A DNA stretch of 17,328 nucleotides from Anaerolineae bacterium (GTDB lineage Bacteria; Chloroflexota; Anaerolineae; JAFGEY01): NCBI GenBank assembly GCA_016929205.1, contig JAFGJF010000372.1, positions 1 to 17,328 on the forward strand. The letters run 5' to 3'. The stretch's first letter is position 1. Each line of letters begins with the position of its first letter. The position numbers were made by a program, and so were the translations under genes. The notes beneath the pieces are model-generated. The model saw nothing but the letters and a program-made list of their open reading frames with translations. It was not told the origin of the DNA and ran no database searches. Shown one piece after another: positions 2 through 8,880 of this stretch.

Positions 2-1000
2 TCCACGATCGACAGGTACGTGAATTTTATGGTGCAGGTAGGACGGGGCAACCTGTCTGCCCGGTTGAGCCTGGATAGCTCTGACGGACGATCAGAGAAC
101 GATCCGCTGGTCATCCTGGGCCGTAACCTGAACGCCATGGTCGAGGGCCTGAGCACGATGACGACACAGACGCGGGAAGCGGCGCAGAGCCTGAGTACGG
201 CTGCGGCCGAGATCCTGGCGGCGACGACACAGTTGGCGTCGACGTCCAGCGAACAGTCTTCGGCTGTGGCTCAGGCCTCAACGACGGTGGACGAGATCCG
301 CACCATCGCCGAGCGTGCCGTCGACGTGGCGCGAGAGGTCGCCGATTCGGCGCAGCGCACCGTGCAGGTCTCGGTGGCGGGACAACAAACGGTGCAGGAG
401 ACGATCGGCAGCATGGAGCAGATCCAGGCACGGGTGCAGGTCATCGCCGACAACAGCGTGGCCTTGGCCGAGCAGATGAACCAGATCAGCGAGATCATCA
501 GTTCGGTCAACGATATCGCCACCCAGTCCAACATGCTGGCCCTGAACGCGTCGGTGGAAGCGGCGCGCGCCGGTGAGAGCGGGTCGGGCTTTGCGGTGGT
601 GGCGCTCGAGATGCGCAACCTGGCCGAGCAGTCGCGGCAGGCGACGTCGCAAGTCAAGACGATTCTCAGCGATATCCAGAAAGCGACGATCGCGACGACG
701 ATGGCCACGGAAGAAGGCTCCAAGGGTGTGGCCGAAGGCGTGCGTATGGTCAGCCGGACGCGGGAGACGATCGAACAGCTCTCACAGGCGATCCAGGAAG
801 CGTCCCAGTCGGCGATGCAGGTGGTGGCCGGAGGGCAGCAGCAGGCGACGGGCATGGAGCAGATGGCGGTGACGATGCAGAGCATCAACCAGGCGACGGT
901 GCAGAGTTTGAGCGCCACCCGCCAGGCGGAAAAGGCAGCCCAGAATCTGAACGACCTGGCGCGTGGACTGAACGAGGTGGTGGAGCAGTACAAGGTCTGA
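2..1000 (+). CDS. methyl-accepting chemotaxis protein, 5'-truncated by window edge
   Basis: C-terminal part of a chemoreceptor. The frame is open to the left edge, and the codons before the GTG at 20 continue a HAMP-like sequence, so the true start and any sensor or membrane segments lie outside the window. Counting from the GTG at 20, residues 1-45 are the end of a HAMP domain (GRGNLSARL, then NLNAMVEGL). Residues about 85-300 form the long coiled-coil signalling domain. The conserved hairpin tip that contacts CheA and CheW is at about 164-207 (NDIATQS, LALNASVEAARAGE, GFAVVALEMRNLAEQS). No CheR-tethering pentapeptide is present; the protein ends EQYKV. It stands upstream of cheA and presumably feeds signal to it. 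The family is certain; the ligand cannot be told. Confidence 0.95.
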   Translation, partial: STIDRYVNFMVQVGRGNLSARLSLDSSDGRSENDPLVILGRNLNAMVEGLSTMTTQTREAAQSLSTAAAEILAATTQLASTSSEQSSAVAQASTTVDEIRTIAERAVDVAREVADSAQRTVQVSVAGQQTVQETIGSMEQIQARVQVIADNSVALAEQMNQISEIISSVNDIATQSNMLALNASVEAARAGESGSGFAVVALEMRNLAEQSRQATSQVKTILSDIQKATIATTMATEEGSKGVAEGVRMVSRTRETIEQLSQAIQEASQSAMQVVAGGQQQATGMEQMAVTMQSINQATVQSLSATRQAEKAAQNLNDLARGLNEVVEQYKV

Positions 1001-1212: not shown

Positions 1213-3900
1213 ATGTCCCTCAGTGCAAAAATAAGAGAGCAATTGATCAGCAGTTTCCGGGTCGAGCTGGCCGAGCACGTGCAAACGATGAACGATGGGC
1301 TGCTGTCCGTCGAGCAGGAACGCGTCGAGGCAACCGAGCACCAGGAGACATTGGAAAATGTCTTTCGTGCGGCGCACAGCCTGAAAGGCGCGGCGCGGGC
1401 GGTTGGCGTGACGATGGTCGAGCAACTGGCGCATACGTTGGAGAGTGTCCTCGACGCGCTGCAACACCAGCGCATCGAGCCAACGCCAGAGATGTTTACG
1501 GCGTGTTACACCGCCATCGATGCGATCGAATTGACCCAGGCGGCCTACGAAGCGGGCGAGACGACGCCGCCTTTGAGTGCCTTGCAGGCCGTTGCCGGAC
1601 TGGAACCGTTTGCCAGCAGACAAGCTGACAAGCCAGGTGCACAAAAACCCAAGCCTGAACGACCCAGGCTGTCCAAGGGTGAACCGGATCTGGATGCGGC
1701 GTTAAGCCAGACCGTCAGCGCGTTGATGCGCCAGGTGCAAGAGGAAAAAAGCCAGCAACAGGTGGGAGAATCATCTCGGACAGTGCCGGTGCTGCCACCA
1801 CTGGATTCGCCGTTGGTGGCAGAGCAGACGACGACGGCAGGGCCACCATCAACGACAGCGTCACTGGCGGCAACAGCACCCGGACAAGCGCAAGTGTCGC
1901 TTAATGACAGTGTGCCATCGAACCATGATGGGCCATCCAACAGCGGTATGCTGCCAGGCAGAGATGGATCCAAGCCAAGTGCTGTATCCGCCAACGGGGA
2001 TGAGACGATCCGCGTTCCGGTGAGTAAACTGGATGCGTTGATGGCCCAACTGAGCGAACTGTTGGTCTCCAAGATTCGCATCGAACAGGGGCTGAACCAG
2101 GTGCGCCAGTTCCAGGGACTGCTGGGAGAGTGGCAGAAAGACTGGCTGGAGATGCGCAGCGTTTACAATCGCCTGGTGCGCCAGCAGCAGCACGGTGTAC
2201 TAAGCGACTATCGTATGAAATCGGTCGATGCAATGCGCAGCGATCTGTTCGGCCTGACCCAAGACCGGGCCAAGTCGCTGGCGCACAAAGGGAATGCAAA
2301 CAGCGGCTTTCAGGGCCGTTCTGTTCACGAGCTGCGCGAGTTGAGCAAGGATGTGGAACAGCTCCTGGGCTATGTCGCTGACGGACAGGACCAGCTCTAT
2401 CGTATGGGCGTGCTGGTCAACGACCTGTCGCGCCAGTACGCCAGTGACACGATGCATATGTCGCTGGTGATCGGAGAATTGGAACAAGAGATCAAGCGGG
2501 TGCGGATGCTGCCTCTGAGCACGATCACCGGCACCTTTGGACGGATGGTGCGCGATCTGGCGCATTTGTCCAACAAGGAAGTGGTCCTCGAGATCGTCGG
2601 CGGCGAGACGGAACTGGACAAACAGGTCCTGGAGCAGATCAAAGACCCGTTGATCCATCTGCTGCGCAATGCGGTGGACCACGGGATCGAACCGCCCGAG
2701 GTGCGCAAGGCGATGGGCAAGCCGCCTACCGGTACGATCACCCTCAGGGCCGAGCAGGCAGGCAAAGACGTCGTCCTGTCGATATCGGATGATGGACGCG
2801 GTCTGGACTTTGATGCCATCCGCCAGGTCGTGGGGCGCAAGCGTGGCGTCGATGCCCAGGCGCTGAGCGAAGCGGAACTCAAGGAAGCGATTTTTACCGC
2901 TGGCATTTCGACCAGTCCGATCATTACCGACATCTCGGGAAGGGGCGTGGGGCTGGACGTGGTGCGGCGCAATATCGAAACGCTGCACGGGGTGATCGAC
3001 CTCGAGTCGGAGCCTGGTTGGGGGACGACCTTCAAGTTGACTCTACAGTTGGCCTTGACCAGTTCGCGGGGGTTGATGGTGCGCGCGGGCGGGGAATTGT
3101 TGGCCATTCCAATCAAAAACGTCGAGTGGATCGCCCGTTACCATCCAGAAGAGATTGTCTCCTTGGAGGGGCAGGATACCGTACGTTATAACAATCGTCC
3201 GTTGACGCTGGTGCGGTTGAGTGACGTGCTCGAGCTCCCAGACGTCGAAAGTCAGCACGATCAAGACAGCGTATTGGTGGTCATCCTGGCCGGAGCCGAG
3301 CGGCGAATGGCCTTCGCCGTCGATGATCTGGTGGATGAGCAAGAGGTGGTGATGAAAGGGTTGGGCCAGCAACTTGCGCGGGTGGGCGGTATCGCCGGAG
3401 CGACGGTGCAGGGTAACGGTCAGGTCGTGCTGATCCTCAACGTCGCCGATTTGATCAAGATGGCGATGAAGGAAAAACGTCGATCGGTGCTCGATATGTT
3501 GAACGCGACGGCTACGTCTGTCGCGGAACGTACGCAGCGTCGCATCCTCGTCGTCGACGATTCGATCACGACGCGGACGTTGGAAAAGAACATTCTGGAA
3601 GCGGCAGGCTATACAGTGCAACTGGCTACCGATGGACGAGAAGCGTTGAACGTAATGGCGACGGGAGGGATACCGGATTTGATCGTGTCGGACGTGGCGA
3701 TGCCGAGGATGAACGGATTCGATCTGACGCGGCAGGTCAAAGAGGATTCACAAACGACAAATGTGCCGGTGATCCTTGTGACATCGCTGGATTCGGTGGA
3801 AGACAAAACGCAGGGCATCGAGGCTGGTGCGGATGCGTACATTGTCAAGAGTAGTTTCGATCAGCAGAATCTACTGGAAACGATAGAGCAGTTGATATGA
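1213..3900 (+). CDS. cheA: hybrid chemotaxis histidine kinase CheA with C-terminal receiver
   Basis: Sensor kinase core of the cluster, 895 aa. The start is fixed by AGGAGG at 1202-1207. Hpt (P1) domain at about 1-110 with phospho-acceptor His55 (FRAAHSLKGAAR). A Pro/Ser/Thr/Gln-rich linker at about 138-262 replaces a recognisable P2 domain. The dimerisation region, about 265-435, is much longer than the usual ~65 residues of P3. The ATPase follows, with N-box Asn486 and His490 (LLRNAVDHG), G1 box DDGRG 526-530 and G2 box GRGVGLDVV 577-585. CheW-like domain at about 612-755. Receiver at 776-895 with Asp782/Asp783, phospho-acceptor Asp827, Thr857 and Lys879. All catalytic residues are present, so the kinase should be active. 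The tethered receiver resembles FrzE/PilL-type hybrids and may act as phosphate sink or output. Confidence 0.96.
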   Translation: MSLSAKIREQLISSFRVELAEHVQTMNDGLLSVEQERVEATEHQETLENVFRAAHSLKGAARAVGVTMVEQLAHTLESVLDALQHQRIEPTPEMFTACYTAIDAIELTQAAYEAGETTPPLSALQAVAGLEPFASRQADKPGAQKPKPERPRLSKGEPDLDAALSQTVSALMRQVQEEKSQQQVGESSRTVPVLPPLDSPLVAEQTTTAGPPSTTASLAATAPGQAQVSLNDSVPSNHDGPSNSGMLPGRDGSKPSAVSANGDETIRVPVSKLDALMAQLSELLVSKIRIEQGLNQVRQFQGLLGEWQKDWLEMRSVYNRLVRQQQHGVLSDYRMKSVDAMRSDLFGLTQDRAKSLAHKGNANSGFQGRSVHELRELSKDVEQLLGYVADGQDQLYRMGVLVNDLSRQYASDTMHMSLVIGELEQEIKRVRMLPLSTITGTFGRMVRDLAHLSNKEVVLEIVGGETELDKQVLEQIKDPLIHLLRNAVDHGIEPPEVRKAMGKPPTGTITLRAEQAGKDVVLSISDDGRGLDFDAIRQVVGRKRGVDAQALSEAELKEAIFTAGISTSPIITDISGRGVGLDVVRRNIETLHGVIDLESEPGWGTTFKLTLQLALTSSRGLMVRAGGELLAIPIKNVEWIARYHPEEIVSLEGQDTVRYNNRPLTLVRLSDVLELPDVESQHDQDSVLVVILAGAERRMAFAVDDLVDEQEVVMKGLGQQLARVGGIAGATVQGNGQVVLILNVADLIKMAMKEKRRSVLDMLNATATSVAERTQRRILVVDDSITTRTLEKNILEAAGYTVQLATDGREALNVMATGGIPDLIVSDVAMPRMNGFDLTRQVKEDSQTTNVPVILVTSLDSVEDKTQGIEAGADAYIVKSSFDQQNLLETIEQLI

Positions 3901-3906
3901 GTCCAA

Positions 3907-3977
3907 AGTTGCAGGTTGAAAGTTGAGAGTTGAATGCAAGATGTGTTCTAACTTTCAACGTTCAACTGGAAACTGAA
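3907..3977. repeat. converging heptamer repeats forming a long hairpin
   Basis: The left side reads as four RGTTGNN heptamers at 3907-3934 (AGTTGCA, GGTTGAA, AGTTGAG, AGTTGAA). The right side reads as four AACNNNN heptamers at 3950-3977 (AACTTTC, AACGTTC, AACTGGA, AACTGAA). Arms 3915-3931 and 3950-3966 pair over 17 positions, with 15 Watson-Crick pairs, one G-U and one mismatch, around an 18-nt loop. There is no T run after it. It fills nearly the whole cheA to receiver-gene spacer and shares the 7-nt period, but not the sequence, of the array before cheA. Confidence 0.75.
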
Positions 3978-3978
3978 T

Positions 3979-3982
3979 GGAG
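3979..3982 (+). promoter_or_regulatory. ribosome binding site choosing the ATG at 3989
   Basis: GGAG lies 6 nt before the ATG at 3989. The earlier in-frame ATG at 3977 sits in the last repeat heptamer, overlaps this site and has no good Shine-Dalgarno of its own, so 3989 is preferred. Confidence 0.6.
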
Positions 3983-3988
3983 TTTGAT

Positions 3989-4441
3989 ATGGGTGAGTCC
4001 AAGACGGCATTGATTGTAGAGGACAGCCGGGTGCAGGCAACGCATGTGGGTCAGTTGTTGATCGAAGTGGGGCTGCAGGTATTGTATGCCGGCGATGGCC
4101 TGGAAGGAGTGCAAAAAGCGCAGCGCTACCATCCAGACATCATTATTCTCGATCTAGAGATGCCACGAATGCATGGCCTGGAAGCGTGCCGGCGGCTCAA
4201 GCAAGATGCACGTACAGCCGACATCCCGATCGTGATGCTCACCTCGCACGCCGACGAAGCGGTGATGGTGTTGGAAGGGATCGAGTTGGGAGCGATCGAC
4301 TTTATTCCCAAAGACGGCTTTGCCGACGTGGTCTTGGTCGAAACGCTTCGCCAGTTGCATTTGCTGCCGAATGGCACTCCTACCGCAGATGCGGAGGCGC
4401 ACCTGGTCGAAACGAGCGAAAATATGAGTATGGTGGGCTAA
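3989..4441 (+). CDS. CheY-like single-domain response regulator (first copy)
   Basis: Receiver protein of 150 aa from the preferred ATG (154 aa if the ATG at 3977 is used). Acidic residues Glu11-Asp12, phospho-acceptor Asp55 (ILDLEMPRMHG), Thr85 and Lys108 are all present, so it should accept phosphate from CheA. After Lys108 the sequence is PKDGFADVVLVETL instead of the common KPF, and the same motif recurs in the second receiver protein of this operon. The last ~25 residues are a short tail without a DNA-binding domain. It lies 88 nt after cheA and its TAA overlaps the cheB ATG by one base. Its target could be a motor, a pilus or another output; the sequence does not say. Confidence 0.93.
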   Translation: MGESKTALIVEDSRVQATHVGQLLIEVGLQVLYAGDGLEGVQKAQRYHPDIIILDLEMPRMHGLEACRRLKQDARTADIPIVMLTSHADEAVMVLEGIELGAIDFIPKDGFADVVLVETLRQLHLLPNGTPTADAEAHLVETSENMSMVG

Positions 4442-5592
4442 TGTCAACCAAGATCAAGACCGGCCCAATCCGGGTGGTGGTCGTCGACGATTCTTTGAGC
4501 GTGCGCGAGCTGCTGGTAGCGTTACTGCACAACTCGGAAGGGATGCAGGTGGTGGGGGTAGGCTCGAACGGCGAAGAAGCGGTGCGCTTGGTCCATCGGT
4601 TGCGACCAGACGTGGTGACGATGGACGTGCTGATGCCCAAGATGGACGGATTGGAAGCGACGCGGCGGATTATGTGCGAGGTACCGACACCGATTGTCGT
4701 GGTGACGGCCAATATGATGCGCGCGGACATCGACCTGACCTTTGAAGCACTGCAGGCCGGCGCGCTGACCGTGATCCGCAAGCCTGGTCTGAACGATCCT
4801 GAGAACTGTGAAAAGCTGGTCCAGACCGTGTGTCTGATGTCGGGTGTGCCGGTGATTCATCATTGGGGACGCGATCGCCTGCCTGGCACATCGACAGGGG
4901 CGGCCAAGAGCGCAATGGAAAAAGCGGGCGCGGAGGTGTCACTGACACGCTTTAGCCCGGGGTTGTCATCCGGTTTGAGACAGGCGCTGAAAGGGCGGGA
5001 TGTCCGGATCATTGGCATCGGCTCCTCGACCGGAGGTCCGGCTGCACTGGCCAAGGTGCTGAGACCACTGCCGGCAGATTTTGCGATACCGATTCTGGCT
5101 GTGCAGCATATCACGCCTGGCTTTGTCAGCGGACTGGCCGAATGGCTGGACAAAGAGACAGCCTTACACGTGAGCATTGCCGGACCGGGCGACACGCCGC
5201 AGCCGGGCACGGTGCTTTTTGCTCCGGATGATTATCACATGGAACTGAATGCGTGGGGCGTGGTCGAGTTGAATCGTGAACCGCCCTATGCCGGGCTGCG
5301 GCCTTCGGCAAACTATCTGTTCCATTCATTGGCCCGGAACTATGGCGTGCGTGCGGCAGGAGTGATCTTGACCGGGATGGGAGACGATGGCGTAGAGGGG
5401 TTGGTGGCGCTGCATCGATCCGGGGGGGTGACGTTGGCGCAAGATGAAGCGAGTTGTGTGGTGTACGGGATGCCTCGCGAGGCCGCCGCCCGCGGCGCAG
5501 TCGACCAGGTGATGCCCTTGGAGTTGATTGCGTTGAGCCTTGAGCAACTCGATGCTAAAAGAGTGCCGCGTCGGGAGGCAAGTCATGGGTAA
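4441..5592 (+). CDS. cheB: CheB-type receptor methylesterase/glutamine deamidase
   Basis: 383 aa. It removes methyl groups from receptor glutamates and resets adaptation in the cytoplasm. N-terminal receiver at about 10-130 with Asp16/Asp17, phospho-acceptor Asp62 (TMDVLMPKMDG), Thr89 and Lys114. After a linker, the CheB esterase domain is at about 188-370 with the expected triad: Ser196 in GSSTGG, His223 in VQHITPGF and Asp316 in TGMGDDG. The start is chosen at the ATG overlapping the stop of the preceding gene by one base; open sequence upstream in this frame only reads through the receiver gene. No cheR is seen in the window and would be expected nearby if methylation is used. Confidence 0.96.
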   Translation: MSTKIKTGPIRVVVVDDSLSVRELLVALLHNSEGMQVVGVGSNGEEAVRLVHRLRPDVVTMDVLMPKMDGLEATRRIMCEVPTPIVVVTANMMRADIDLTFEALQAGALTVIRKPGLNDPENCEKLVQTVCLMSGVPVIHHWGRDRLPGTSTGAAKSAMEKAGAEVSLTRFSPGLSSGLRQALKGRDVRIIGIGSSTGGPAALAKVLRPLPADFAIPILAVQHITPGFVSGLAEWLDKETALHVSIAGPGDTPQPGTVLFAPDDYHMELNAWGVVELNREPPYAGLRPSANYLFHSLARNYGVRAAGVILTGMGDDGVEGLVALHRSGGVTLAQDEASCVVYGMPREAAARGAVDQVMPLELIALSLEQLDAKRVPRREASHG

Positions 5593-5956
5593 CAAAACGA
5601 TGGATATCTGTAACAGTCTGGACATTATCTCTGCTCGAATGGCTGTCCGACAACTGGCTCGCACCGTCGGCTTGAGGACGATGGATCAAGCACGAATTGC
5701 CCTGGCGACGTCGTCGCTGGCACAAGCTATGGGTATGGATAATGGGCACAAGGGACAGGTCGATATCGAAAGCTGTACAAAGAGCGAGTGCGTAGGTGTC
5801 AAGGTGGTGTGCACGGCCAACGTAGGCGAGGACGAGGATACGCCGCGCTTTGGCGACGCACGGTGGATGGTCGATGATTACGAGATCGTTCGTATCTCGC
5901 CCGTCCAGCTTCGGGCCACCATTGTAAAGTGGATAAATGGTAGGAGCGTGGGATGA
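5585..5956 (+). CDS. RsbT-like (GHKL) regulatory protein with degenerate ATP-binding boxes
   Basis: 123 aa. The start at 5585 is set by GGGAGG at 5573-5578, and the gene overlaps the cheB end by 8 nt. Residues 7-40 (DIISAR, RTVGLRTMDQARIAL) and the C-terminal end (DDYEIVRIS, LRATIVKWI) fit the RsbT-type anti-sigma/switch kinase pattern as I remember it. The parts that bind ATP do not fit. Where RsbT has an SELARN N-box, this protein has TSSLAQAM (42-49). Where RsbT has DxGPGI, it has ANVGEDED (78-85). The glycine-rich lid is reduced to PRFGDAR. I infer a pseudokinase-like binding protein that kept the fold and lost catalysis. It could be a partner-switch adaptor between CheA/CheY signalling and a STAS or phosphatase partner elsewhere. 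The family call is moderately sure; loss of activity is inference. Confidence 0.72.
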   Translation: MGNKTMDICNSLDIISARMAVRQLARTVGLRTMDQARIALATSSLAQAMGMDNGHKGQVDIESCTKSECVGVKVVCTANVGEDEDTPRFGDARWMVDDYEIVRISPVQLRATIVKWINGRSVG

Positions 5957-6357
5957 ACAACACCCAAACTGTGGCACGAAAAACGATACTTGTTGTTGAA
6001 GACAGCTCCACCCAATCCCTGCACCTGCGAGCGCTGTTGGAAGATGCGGGTGTGGGTGCGATTGTCGCCAACAATGGCTTTGAGGGGGTCCAGATGGCCC
6101 AAGTTTTGCGTCCCGATCTGATCGTGCTTGACGTTCAAATGCCGGGCATGAACGGGCTTCAGGTCTGTGAGGCACTCAAGCAGATCAAGGAGACGTGCGA
6201 CATTCCGATCATTATGCTCACCCGGCACGACGACCCCGAAATGGTTGCATTGGGTATGCAATCGGGGATCACGGATTACATTCCCAAAGACGCCTTTGCC
6301 GATGTGGTTTTGATCGAGACGCTCAAAGAGATGGAGATCATTCCGCACACAGTGTGA
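5953..6357 (+). CDS. CheY-like single-domain response regulator (second copy)
   Basis: 134 aa. Starts at the ATG of an ATGA overlap with the RsbT-like gene, with AGGAG at 5942-5946. Glu16-Asp17, phospho-acceptor Asp60 (IVLDVQMPGMNG), Thr90 and Lys112 are present. It is a close paralogue of the receiver protein at 3989-4441: both have a VEDS motif, FEGVQ/LEGVQ, and PKDxFADVVLxETL after the conserved lysine. The two copies suggest a division of labour, for example output versus phosphate sink as proposed for PilG/PilH-type pairs, but nothing here shows which is which. Confidence 0.93.
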   Translation: MNNTQTVARKTILVVEDSSTQSLHLRALLEDAGVGAIVANNGFEGVQMAQVLRPDLIVLDVQMPGMNGLQVCEALKQIKETCDIPIIMLTRHDDPEMVALGMQSGITDYIPKDAFADVVLIETLKEMEIIPHTV

Positions 6358-6393
6358 GCACCCATGTCGCTCAAGATGAGGACGCTACAAGTT

Positions 6394-6397
6394 GGAG
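6394..6397 (+). promoter_or_regulatory. ribosome binding site favouring the GTG at 6406
   Basis: GGAG lies 8 nt before GTG 6406. The in-frame ATG at 6364, 6 nt after the previous stop, has no visible Shine-Dalgarno and could only be used by translational coupling. Confidence 0.5.
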
Positions 6398-6405
6398 AAA
6401 CTAGA

Positions 6406-7830
6406 GTGGCGAATGAACGCGTACTGCTAATTGAAGACAGCCTGGTTTACCGGGAGTTGATCGTGCACCATATCCTGGAACCGCACGGCTACCAGGCGCT
6501 CGTCACCGGCGACGGGCAGGAGGGTCTGCGACTGGCGCTGGCTGAGAGGCCGGATCTGATCATCACCGACTGGGAACTGCCTGGCCTGACCGGGATCCAG
6601 ATCCTCGAAGCGTTGCACGCGTCCAGACTCGACATTCCGATTATTTTGATGACCTTGCACGGTTCGGAAGAGCTGGTCGTGCGCGCCTTTCGTCAGGGGA
6701 TCAAGGACTATGTGATCAAACCCTTTGAGGTCGAAGAGATGCTATCGGTCATCGACCAGGCATTGACCGAGACGCGGTTGCGCCGTGAGCGTGATGCTTT
6801 GATGCGGAAACTGGTCGAGGTGAACCAGCAACTGCAAGCCATCCTGACCCATACCGAAGATGTGGTGCTGGTCGTGGACGATGATCCACAGGCGCACATC
6901 ATTCTGGCCAACAAGGCTGCCCAACAGGCGTTCGGGATCGAGCCAAATGTGGCCGGAGATCCCCTGGCATCGATCATCGATGATGAAGTGCTGCTTGACG
7001 TCTTTACCCGCGCGCAGGAGACGGCCAGGTCTGCCCAGGCCGAGATCACGCTATCGGATGAACGCACCTTGAATGCCAATGTGACGCCGATCGCCGGTGT
7101 AGGACAGGTGGCGGTGATGCAAGATATTACTCATTTCAAAGAGTTGGACCGGATCAAGAGCGAATTGGTGTCAACTGTATCCCACGACCTGCGTTCACCG
7201 TTGACGTCGATCAAGGGGTTTGCCGAACTGCTGCCTATGGCCGGGAGCTTGAATGAACAGCAAAAGCATTTTCTGTCCAACATCCGACGAGGTGTGGACA
7301 GCGTGGCGGATATGATCGCGGACCTGCTGGACCTGGGACGGATCGAGGCGGAAGCGCGAATGGAGATGACCGAGTGTGATCTGGTTGAGATCGTGAAAAG
7401 GACCGTGATCGGCCTGCAAGGGCCGGCCGAATATAAGCATCAAAGTTTGACCTTGCGTTGTGACGCTGATCTGCCAGCGGTGTTGGGCAACCGGATCCGA
7501 TTGGGACAGGCGATCTCGAACCTGGTGGGCAATGCGATCAAGTACACACCGCAAGAAGGACATATCGAGGTGTCGGTAGGCAGGCAGAACGGACACCTGG
7601 CGATTGCCGTAAAAGACGATGGTATGGGTATCCCGGCCGATGCAGTGCCGCGCCTCTTTGAAAAGTTTTACCGGGTCAAGAGTGCCGAGACGGACAACAT
7701 CACCGGCAGCGGATTAGGGCTCTCACTGGTCAAGTCGATCGTAGAAAAGCACCAGGGCCGGATCTGGGTTGACAGCCAGTTGGGTCAAGGCAGCATATTT
7801 ACTGTGGTTTTGCCAGTCAATCGTTCGTAG
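6406..7830 (+). CDS. REC-PAS-histidine kinase
   Basis: 474 aa from the preferred GTG; 488 aa if the ATG at 6364 is used. Domains in order: receiver 5-120 with Glu10-Asp11, Asp55 (ITDWELPG), Thr83 and Lys105 followed by the usual PF; a helical linker; a PAS-like domain at about 140-245; HisKA with His260 (VSTVSHDLRSPLTSIKG); HATPase_c with Asn372/Asn376 (NLVGNAIKYT), Asp405 (DDGMGIP) and the G2 box GSGLGL 434-439. No membrane segment, so it is cytoplasmic. The N-terminal receiver suggests it is driven by phosphate from CheA or another kinase and passes the signal to a further response regulator not seen here. It closes the chemosensory operon. Confidence 0.95.
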   Translation: MANERVLLIEDSLVYRELIVHHILEPHGYQALVTGDGQEGLRLALAERPDLIITDWELPGLTGIQILEALHASRLDIPIILMTLHGSEELVVRAFRQGIKDYVIKPFEVEEMLSVIDQALTETRLRRERDALMRKLVEVNQQLQAILTHTEDVVLVVDDDPQAHIILANKAAQQAFGIEPNVAGDPLASIIDDEVLLDVFTRAQETARSAQAEITLSDERTLNANVTPIAGVGQVAVMQDITHFKELDRIKSELVSTVSHDLRSPLTSIKGFAELLPMAGSLNEQQKHFLSNIRRGVDSVADMIADLLDLGRIEAEARMEMTECDLVEIVKRTVIGLQGPAEYKHQSLTLRCDADLPAVLGNRIRLGQAISNLVGNAIKYTPQEGHIEVSVGRQNGHLAIAVKDDGMGIPADAVPRLFEKFYRVKSAETDNITGSGLGLSLVKSIVEKHQGRIWVDSQLGQGSIFTVVLPVNRS

Positions 7831-8221: not shown

Positions 8222-8259
8222 GTCTTCTAGCTGCTCCGGTTGTGCTAGTGAGGTGCAAA

Positions 8260-8880
8260 ATGGCCAAGATGGACTTTAAAAAAGAGTTGAAGCATCTATA
8301 CAATCCATCGGCAAAGGTTTTCACCGTTGTTGATGTGCCGTCGATGCACTTTTTGATGATCGATGGGCATGGCGATCCGAATACGGCGCGGGCATACCAG
8401 GAAGCCGTCGAGGCGCTGTACGGCTTGGCATTCAAGATCAAGTTTGTCAGCAAGCGAGAACTGGACAAAGACTATGTTGTGCCGCCGCTGGAAGGATTGT
8501 GGTGGGCGGAGGATATGGACACGTTCTCCAGCGCGCGGGACAAAAGCGCCTGGGATTGGACAATGATGATCATGCAGCCGCAGTGGATCACGCAGGATAT
8601 CGTCACCGAGTCGATCGAGCAGGTGAAAGAAAAAGAGTTGCCGGCTTTGTCCAGGATCAGACTGGAGGATTATGCCGAAGGCCTCTCGGTGCAGATTATG
8701 CACCTCGGCTCTTACGATGATGAAGGTCCGGCGTTGGCCCGGCTGCACAGCGAATGGATCCCTGAAAATGGCTACGTGGAAAACGGCAAACATCACGAGA
8801 TCTATATCAGCGATCCGCGCCGTGTCGCACCGGAAAAACTAAAGACCGTGCTCCGGCAGCCGGTTAGAAGAGCCCGATAG
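8260..8880 (+). CDS. GyrI-like small-molecule-binding protein
   Basis: 206 aa. The start at ATG 8260 is chosen because GAGG at 8250-8253 precedes it; an in-frame GTG at 8242 is possible but less likely. The sequence fits the stand-alone GyrI-like/COG4832 family: FLMIDGHGDPN at 31-41, DYVVPPLEGLWW at 71-82, WDWTMMIMQP at 98-107, and a C-terminal HHEIYISDPRRVAPEK. These proteins bind small hydrophobic or cationic compounds in the SOUL/GyrI fold; some hydrolyse them, most are uncharacterised. No DNA-binding domain is attached. The next gene starts 7 nt after its stop, so the two are likely one transcript. Confidence 0.88.
   Translation: MAKMDFKKELKHLYNPSAKVFTVVDVPSMHFLMIDGHGDPNTARAYQEAVEALYGLAFKIKFVSKRELDKDYVVPPLEGLWWAEDMDTFSSARDKSAWDWTMMIMQPQWITQDIVTESIEQVKEKELPALSRIRLEDYAEGLSVQIMHLGSYDDEGPALARLHSEWIPENGYVENGKHHEIYISDPRRVAPEKLKTVLRQPVRRAR

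Follow-up and report, generated by a model that had tools for sequence, protein, structure and literature searches.

The window analysed here is a 17,328-nucleotide contig (JAFGJF010000372.1) of an Anaerolineae bacterium, and our subject is a 123-amino-acid (aa) open reading frame (ORF) within its chemosensory gene string. By Pfam, the string encodes a methyl-accepting chemotaxis protein (MCP), CheA with a receiver domain (REC), a stand-alone receiver, CheB, the ORF in question, a second receiver and a receiver-PAS-histidine kinase (table 1). An earlier note on this DNA had described the ORF as a degenerate relative of RsbT wedged between cheB and a receiver gene, and the ORF calls bear this out, with overlaps of 8 bp on the cheB side and 4 bp on the receiver side. 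On the sole basis of these overlaps, the ORF, hereafter pseudo-RsbT, is probably co-expressed with both neighbours. The closest CheA proteins found share 60-66% identity with that of the window and come from genomes of Chloroflexota type.

Table 1. Features of the window and of two related loci (L and G numbers are our handles for loci and genomes)
Feature	Position	Strand	Basis
Pseudo-RsbT, 123-aa degenerate RsbT-like ORF	5585..5956	+	ORF, family, fold prediction, profile match to intact RsbT
GGGAGG, ribosome-binding-site-like, 6 nt 5' of the ATG at 5585	5573..5578	+	Sequence inspection
Codons Arg18-Arg22, helix 1; of these, Arg18 and Arg22 remain from the partner-binding side	5636..5650	+	A3, A5 alignment counts
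Former N-box, residues 43-48, SSLAQA (SELARN in intact RsbT); Glu and Asn lost	5711..5728	+	
Former G1 box, residues 78-82 (DxGPG in intact RsbT), lost; shortened lid 3' of the box	5816..5830	+	
MCP signalling domain, gene cut by window start	20..1000	+	Pfam MCPsignal 1.3e-36
cheA with C-terminal receiver domain	1213..3900	+	Pfam Hpt, H-kinase_dim, HATPase_c, CheW, Response_reg
CheY1, first stand-alone receiver	3977..4441	+	Pfam Response_reg 3.2e-24
cheB, receiver and methylesterase	4438..5592	+	Pfam CheB_methylest 1.3e-61
CheY2, second stand-alone receiver, usual neighbour of pseudo-RsbT	5953..6357	+	Pfam Response_reg 2.3e-24
Receiver-PAS-histidine kinase	6364..7830	+	Pfam
Module with intact rsbT pair upstream of che string	L003:33-2014 and L061:3-2368		STAS, two rsbT, RsbX-like phosphatase

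Pseudo-RsbT marks a protein family without a Pfam name. The window protein matches nothing in Pfam or NCBIfam at E<=10, and a single one of the 98 members of A2 matched HATPase_c_2 (PF13581; E 0.028); with matches absent or below the curated cut-off, membership of HATPase_c_2 by Pfam score was rejected. Sequence searches of the PDB with the window protein, profile A1 and profile A2 gave no match, and a first scan of genome contigs using the single protein as query returned no relatives. A protein database search at E<=10 returned 133 homologues, most of the 120 matches listed being 34-50% identical. The kinship with RsbT proposed in the earlier note is borne out by comparison of the window family with intact RsbT (hhalign probability 99.7%, E 1.7e-25, 122 columns), and the predicted fold is of the GHKL type, RsbW/SpoIIAB-like, the best structural matches in the PDB being the RsbW/SpoIIAB kinases.

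Compared with intact RsbT, the window protein lacks the N-box Glu (Ser44) and Asn (Ala48) and the Asp of the DxGPG motif (Ala78), and its lid stretch is shortened, in line with the earlier claim that the N-box Asn, the DxGxG motif and the lid glycines are gone. In a joint alignment, the N-box Asn is missing from all 50 rows of A3 and all nine of A5, a divergent group of the family, as it is from 120 database rows (the window protein and P0003-P0121, without P0002, a near copy of the window protein). DxGPG is found in 0/50 and 0/9, the G1 Asp in 2/50 and 0/9, and a GxGxG anywhere in 6/50 and 0/9 against 28/30 in A4, a set of intact RsbT; among the database rows, DxGxG occurs elsewhere in two and GxGxG in 13. 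The N-box Glu, Asn, G1 Asp and DxGPG are all 30/30 in A4, by choice, since these rows were hand-picked as intact RsbT and L009, L062 and the long fusion-frame domains were left out; in a fairer control, 29 loci taken by score alone from a sample of 400 genomes of the phylum, an ELARN-type N-box and DxGPG are present in 29/29. The N-box Glu, kept in 11/50 rows of A3 (0/9 in A5), is what could still speak for an ATPase or kinase whose catalytic residues have been rearranged; given the complete absence of Asn and DxGPG in those 50 rows, and predicted models devoid of any helix of at least four residues between positions 80 and 97, where the lid would lie, we regard a live enzyme as very improbable. 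As judged from the alignments, the whole family has lost both the N-box Asn and the G1 box, and no homologue with intact boxes was found at the same place.

The broken motifs of the window copy might also be those of a single decayed copy or of a chance open frame. Yet dN/dS, the ratio of nonsynonymous to synonymous substitution rates, is 0.02-0.11 in 13 closely related pairs from elsewhere in the family, indicating purifying selection (the window gene is not among the pairs, a close DNA relative not being at hand, and the L065-L069 pair includes a fused receiver). A single decayed copy is ruled out by the family-wide loss together with the low dN/dS in relatives, and a chance ORF by the 133 homologues; with che genes present at 30 of 32 loci as well, we give practically no credit to either. 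A tree built without the catalytic columns (89 rows, 109 columns, no outgroup, many forks unresolved) splits 30 RsbT rows from 59 family rows by one branch (87/100; 90% of 200 bootstrap trees), the window subgroup of 39 rows being supported at 100/100. A single loss of catalysis is the simplest, though not proven, account; that the kinase came first and the dead protein later is taken from what is generally known of the GHKL family.

Scanning genome contigs with profile A2 yielded 22 loci. The titles point to Chloroflexota-type bacteria for 21 of them and to Microgenomates for L004; the L004 cluster resembles the Chloroflexota ones, and the contig is perhaps misplaced in a Microgenomates bin. 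Across 396 genomes of the class of G003, searched at E<=1e-6, strong matches (E<=3e-28) lie at 28 places in 22 genomes, besides 38 weaker places. Twenty-one of the latter are single-domain RsbT with N-box and DxGPG intact, mostly beside STAS and RsbX-like genes, nine are the divergent group, and six lie within frames of 708-791 aa, three of which, as far as they were read, are intact (L049) or degenerate (L051 and L053). The remaining two (L009:7698-8177 and L062:5062-5550) are second RsbT-like proteins adjoining an MCP gene; by look they are half degenerate, both with altered G1 and lid motifs, the L009 copy keeping an Asn in the N-box region. In the phylum sample, searched at E<=1e-16, a cut-off that the divergent group would not pass, only G003 matched strongly; the other 45 listed places scored 64-93 bits, and the 29 lower-scoring loci fetched were all intact RsbT. 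Per genome, at most 11 candidates were scored in the family scan and at most 10 in the rsbT scan, so that weak members may be hidden.

The surroundings of the gene are well conserved. Our 32 main-type clusters comprise the strong places of the class scan plus L004, L005, L014 and L015, and include some close relatives; ORFs outside the window were called mechanically, as the longest frame, so that overlaps there are rough. The neighbourhood survey suggested earlier found che genes in 30 of these loci (not in L059 and L073), with cheA in 25 and cheB in 26, and a receiver adjoins the family gene on the same strand in 27. The five without an adjacent receiver are L001 and L070, where the contig ends, L061, with cheB on both sides, L062, with a receiver on the other strand, and L073. 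Seen from CheA, among the 20 places most like the window CheA the family gene belongs to the same string in 18, the two others being short loci chosen through CheA: L156 reads cheA-REC-cheB-cheB without a family member, and L157 is cut after REC. The divergent group keeps one order, cheB-receiver-[family]-cheW-receiver, in 9/9. In two of its strings tested, the last receivers (L138:9299-10255 and L158:9549-10460) have a weak match to Roadblock/LC7, below the cut-off.

In L065 and L069 a receiver is fused to the family domain, in proteins of 250 and 252 aa (Pfam recognizes the receiver of L065, and a profile that of L069), and six database proteins (P0122-P0127), one of them probably L069's own, have the same fusion. 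Two genes downstream of these fusions lies a receiver joined to an adenylate/guanylate cyclase domain by Pfam (L065:8034-9155 and L069:8264-9370), possibly a cyclic nucleotide output. In the window, CheY1 (3977-4441) and CheY2 (5953-6357) have an unusual C-terminal stretch in common, KDxFADVVLxETL, perhaps a shared docking site. Downstream of the che string, 8242-8880 encodes a protein with a GyrI-like small-molecule binding domain.

Two arginines of helix 1 have outlasted the catalytic residues. Arg18 and Arg22 are each present in 50/50 rows of A3 and 9/9 of A5, and in 117 and 119 of the 120 database rows, the remainder being gaps except for one Gln. In profile alignments Arg18 aligns with Arg20 of SpoIIAB and, by the same logic, with Arg23 of RsbW, and R19 and R23 of RsbT match Arg18 and Arg22 by spacing. 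According to published work, SpoIIAB Arg20 is tied to sigma-factor binding and to the SpoIIAA site (PMC10345196), RsbW Arg23 is linked to RsbV Asp23 (PMC7340262), and RsbT R19 and R23 lie in the RsbU interface (PMC12143880). The earlier note had proposed an adaptor that retains a binding surface without catalysis, and at the level of sequence the loss of the catalytic residues together with the retention of these arginines supports it; Arg18 and Arg22 would then bind a partner.

The RsbU interface can also be read differently: pseudo-RsbT may have kept the RsbU-activating half of RsbT and, in a dimeric signalling protein, bind and stiffen the helical linker, as RsbT does with RsbU. Such a protein might be the GAF-GAF protein that adjoins it in some clusters, the histidine kinase nearby, or a PP2C encoded elsewhere. 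Besides the match of R19 and R23, the GAF-labelled genes that adjoin the family gene in several clusters fit such a role, but Pfam gives no GAF gene in the window's che string, and when the 32 clusters were searched with a profile grown from the RsbX-like protein of L003, no PP2C gene came up other than in L003 and L061 (RsbU_N was not searched). By Pfam, the six receiver-bearing neighbours tested have no PP2C domain. We consider linker binding decidedly improbable.

Some family members stand in gene strings with partner-switching modules. In L003, genes for a STAS protein, two RsbT and a SpoIIE-type phosphatase lie directly 5' of cheW-mcp-cheA-REC-cheB-[family], and L061 has STAS, STAS, rsbT, rsbT and phosphatase, followed by cheW-mcp-cheA-...-[family] (rsb gene names were assigned from Pfam domains and gene order). 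On other contigs of two family-carrying genomes, L165 (G299) and L171 (G002), rsbT-RsbX-cheW-mcp is found at the contig ends. G299 also carries a STAS protein directly upstream of cheA (L054:12914-13744, minus strand), which is 50-63% identical to 13 STAS proteins of L061, L161, L162, L168 and L169. In its N-terminal part, this protein matches the region that precedes the signalling domain in the cluster MCPs (41.7% over 96 aa, E 4e-14) and the MCP of the window (49% over 39 aa, E 3e-7 pairwise); the common stretch, not named by Pfam, reads as HAMP-like. In 14 control CheA loci without the family (L142-L155), no rsbT, RsbX or credible STAS gene was found, a 10-bit STAS match in L153 being taken as noise; these loci were chosen from CheA matches without a nearby family match, contig ends truncate several of them, and one control genome, G249, bears the divergent group on another contig. 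Intact rsbT occurs in 12/31 genomes with the family, main or divergent, versus 10/365 without it (Fisher 2e-9, without correction for kinship or completeness and with an rsbT threshold set after the score gap had been seen).

Taken together, we lean towards the view that the gene encodes a pseudo-RsbT, an RsbT-derived protein that no longer binds ATP or transfers phosphate and acts by binding alone. The computed support consists of the predicted fold, the profile homology to RsbT, the motif loss, the arginines and the selection in relatives, and further of the conserved place in CheA:REC clusters and, for some members, the naturally occurring receiver fusion. Mechanistically, pseudo-RsbT would neither bind nor use ATP, and CheA would phosphorylate the adjoining receiver (CheY2, or the fused one), whose state would expose or mask pseudo-RsbT; both of these steps are likely. 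Once freed, pseudo-RsbT would dock via helix 1 on a partner-switch protein, most likely a STAS domain of the RsbS/RsbR type, without phosphorylating it, a step for which we see about even chances. It would thereby rival or replace live RsbT and relay CheA output to a stressosome-type switch. Candidate partners are a STAS scaffold, a helical linker and a Che protein. More tentatively, and with doubts prevailing, chemosensory array and stressosome may form one machine in this branch of Chloroflexota, in which CheA output would reach an RsbR/RsbS-type scaffold via a receiver-gated dead RsbT competing with live RsbT, and methylation-based adaptation would tune the stress switch.

Several observations weigh against this proposal. 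L073, the weakest of the 32 loci (100 bits; 5632-6081, minus strand), lacks che genes over the 5.6 kb downstream, where a 904-aa frame lies that by its look we take to be MalT-like, and upstream the contig ends. Arg18 and Arg22 are frequent in intact RsbT too (20/30 and 21/30 in A4), and therefore may serve the dimer or the fold. Nineteen of the 31 family-carrying genomes are without intact rsbT at the threshold used, and live RsbT is therefore not shown as a general partner; its co-occurrence with the family may merely mark a clade. G387, which has a close CheA, keeps its rsbT-RsbX pair apart from cheW, and the genes after the pair are unrelated, most of them on the opposite strand (L163). 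The proposed interactions, loss of ATP use and co-expression of pseudo-RsbT are all predictions from sequences and models.

The earlier note's suggestion that the adaptor ties CheA output to a STAS or phosphatase module fares unevenly. It agrees with the gene order of L003 and L061, the contig ends of two more genomes and the STAS gene beside cheA in L054, but no rsb gene is present in the visible upstream part of the 12 clusters, several of them close relatives, in which cheW can be seen upstream of cheA, and in the window that part lies beyond the edge, which cuts the MCP gene; the link to rsb gene neighbours is not general. Such absences, and the 19 genomes without intact rsbT, favour an adaptor confined to the chemosensory array, which would bind CheA, CheB, CheW or a receiver and tune phosphotransfer or adaptation, RsbT ancestry being merely the source of the fold. 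The usual neighbours (cheA, cheB and receivers) and the placing of the divergent group between a receiver and a second cheW point the same way. Against it stand the STAS-rsbT-rsbT-RsbX genes joined to the string in L003 and L061, rsbT-RsbX-cheW at the contig ends of L165 and L171, the STAS gene adjoining cheA in L054, and kept arginines at positions that, according to the cited papers, bind STAS, sigma factor or RsbU in relatives. We hold an array-only adaptor to be unlikely, though worth serious consideration.

Chemosensory arrays and stressosomes are well-studied cooperative assemblies that are usually handled separately. A dead RsbT that is conserved within che clusters, and that in some genomes shares its gene string with an RSTX-type module, is a direct and testable candidate for a physical wire linking the two and, if true, would mean that the binding role of RsbT can outlast its kinase role. 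A literature search by title and start of abstract, covering few subscription papers and no preprints, gave among the matches listed neither a dead RsbT in a che cluster nor an RSTX module linked with MCP and CheA; a wire of this kind would be so far undescribed. In Vibrio brasiliensis, a CheY-like gene adjoins an RSTX module, for which aerotaxis was proposed (PMC4976288). The paper on rsbRSTX modules with varied downstream genes includes RSTX beside two-component genes; the domains named in its accessible part do not include MCP, CheW or CheA, and a dead RsbT is not mentioned there (PMC9237108). In Nostoc punctiforme, the chemotaxis-like Hmp system and the partner-switching HmpU-W likewise bring a che-like system and an Rsb-like switch into one process, but as two named systems, with no dead RsbT inside a che cluster in the text available (PMC6495340).

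Closer in architecture is LvrC of Leptospira, where a receiver is joined to an RsbW-like Bergerat domain, as in L065, L069 and P0122-P0127; LvrC, however, gave crystals with ADP and receives its input from the histidine kinase LvrB (PMC13269768). Members of the pseudo-RsbT family, in contrast, are degenerate and mostly have a gene of their own in a CheA cluster, the window protein being stand-alone. The anti-sigma kinases RsbW and SpoIIAB give the best structural matches in the PDB, and pseudo-RsbT has an Arg at the SpoIIAB Arg20/RsbW Arg23 position; it has, however, lost the catalytic residues, and any binding of a sigma factor is putative. Finally, unlike RsbT of the stressosome (RsbR-RsbS-RsbT), pseudo-RsbT is located in a che cluster and has neither the N-box Asn nor DxGPG and only a short lid, yet it shares with RsbT the profile homology, the predicted fold, the helix-1 arginines and the C-terminal acidic and KW patterns.
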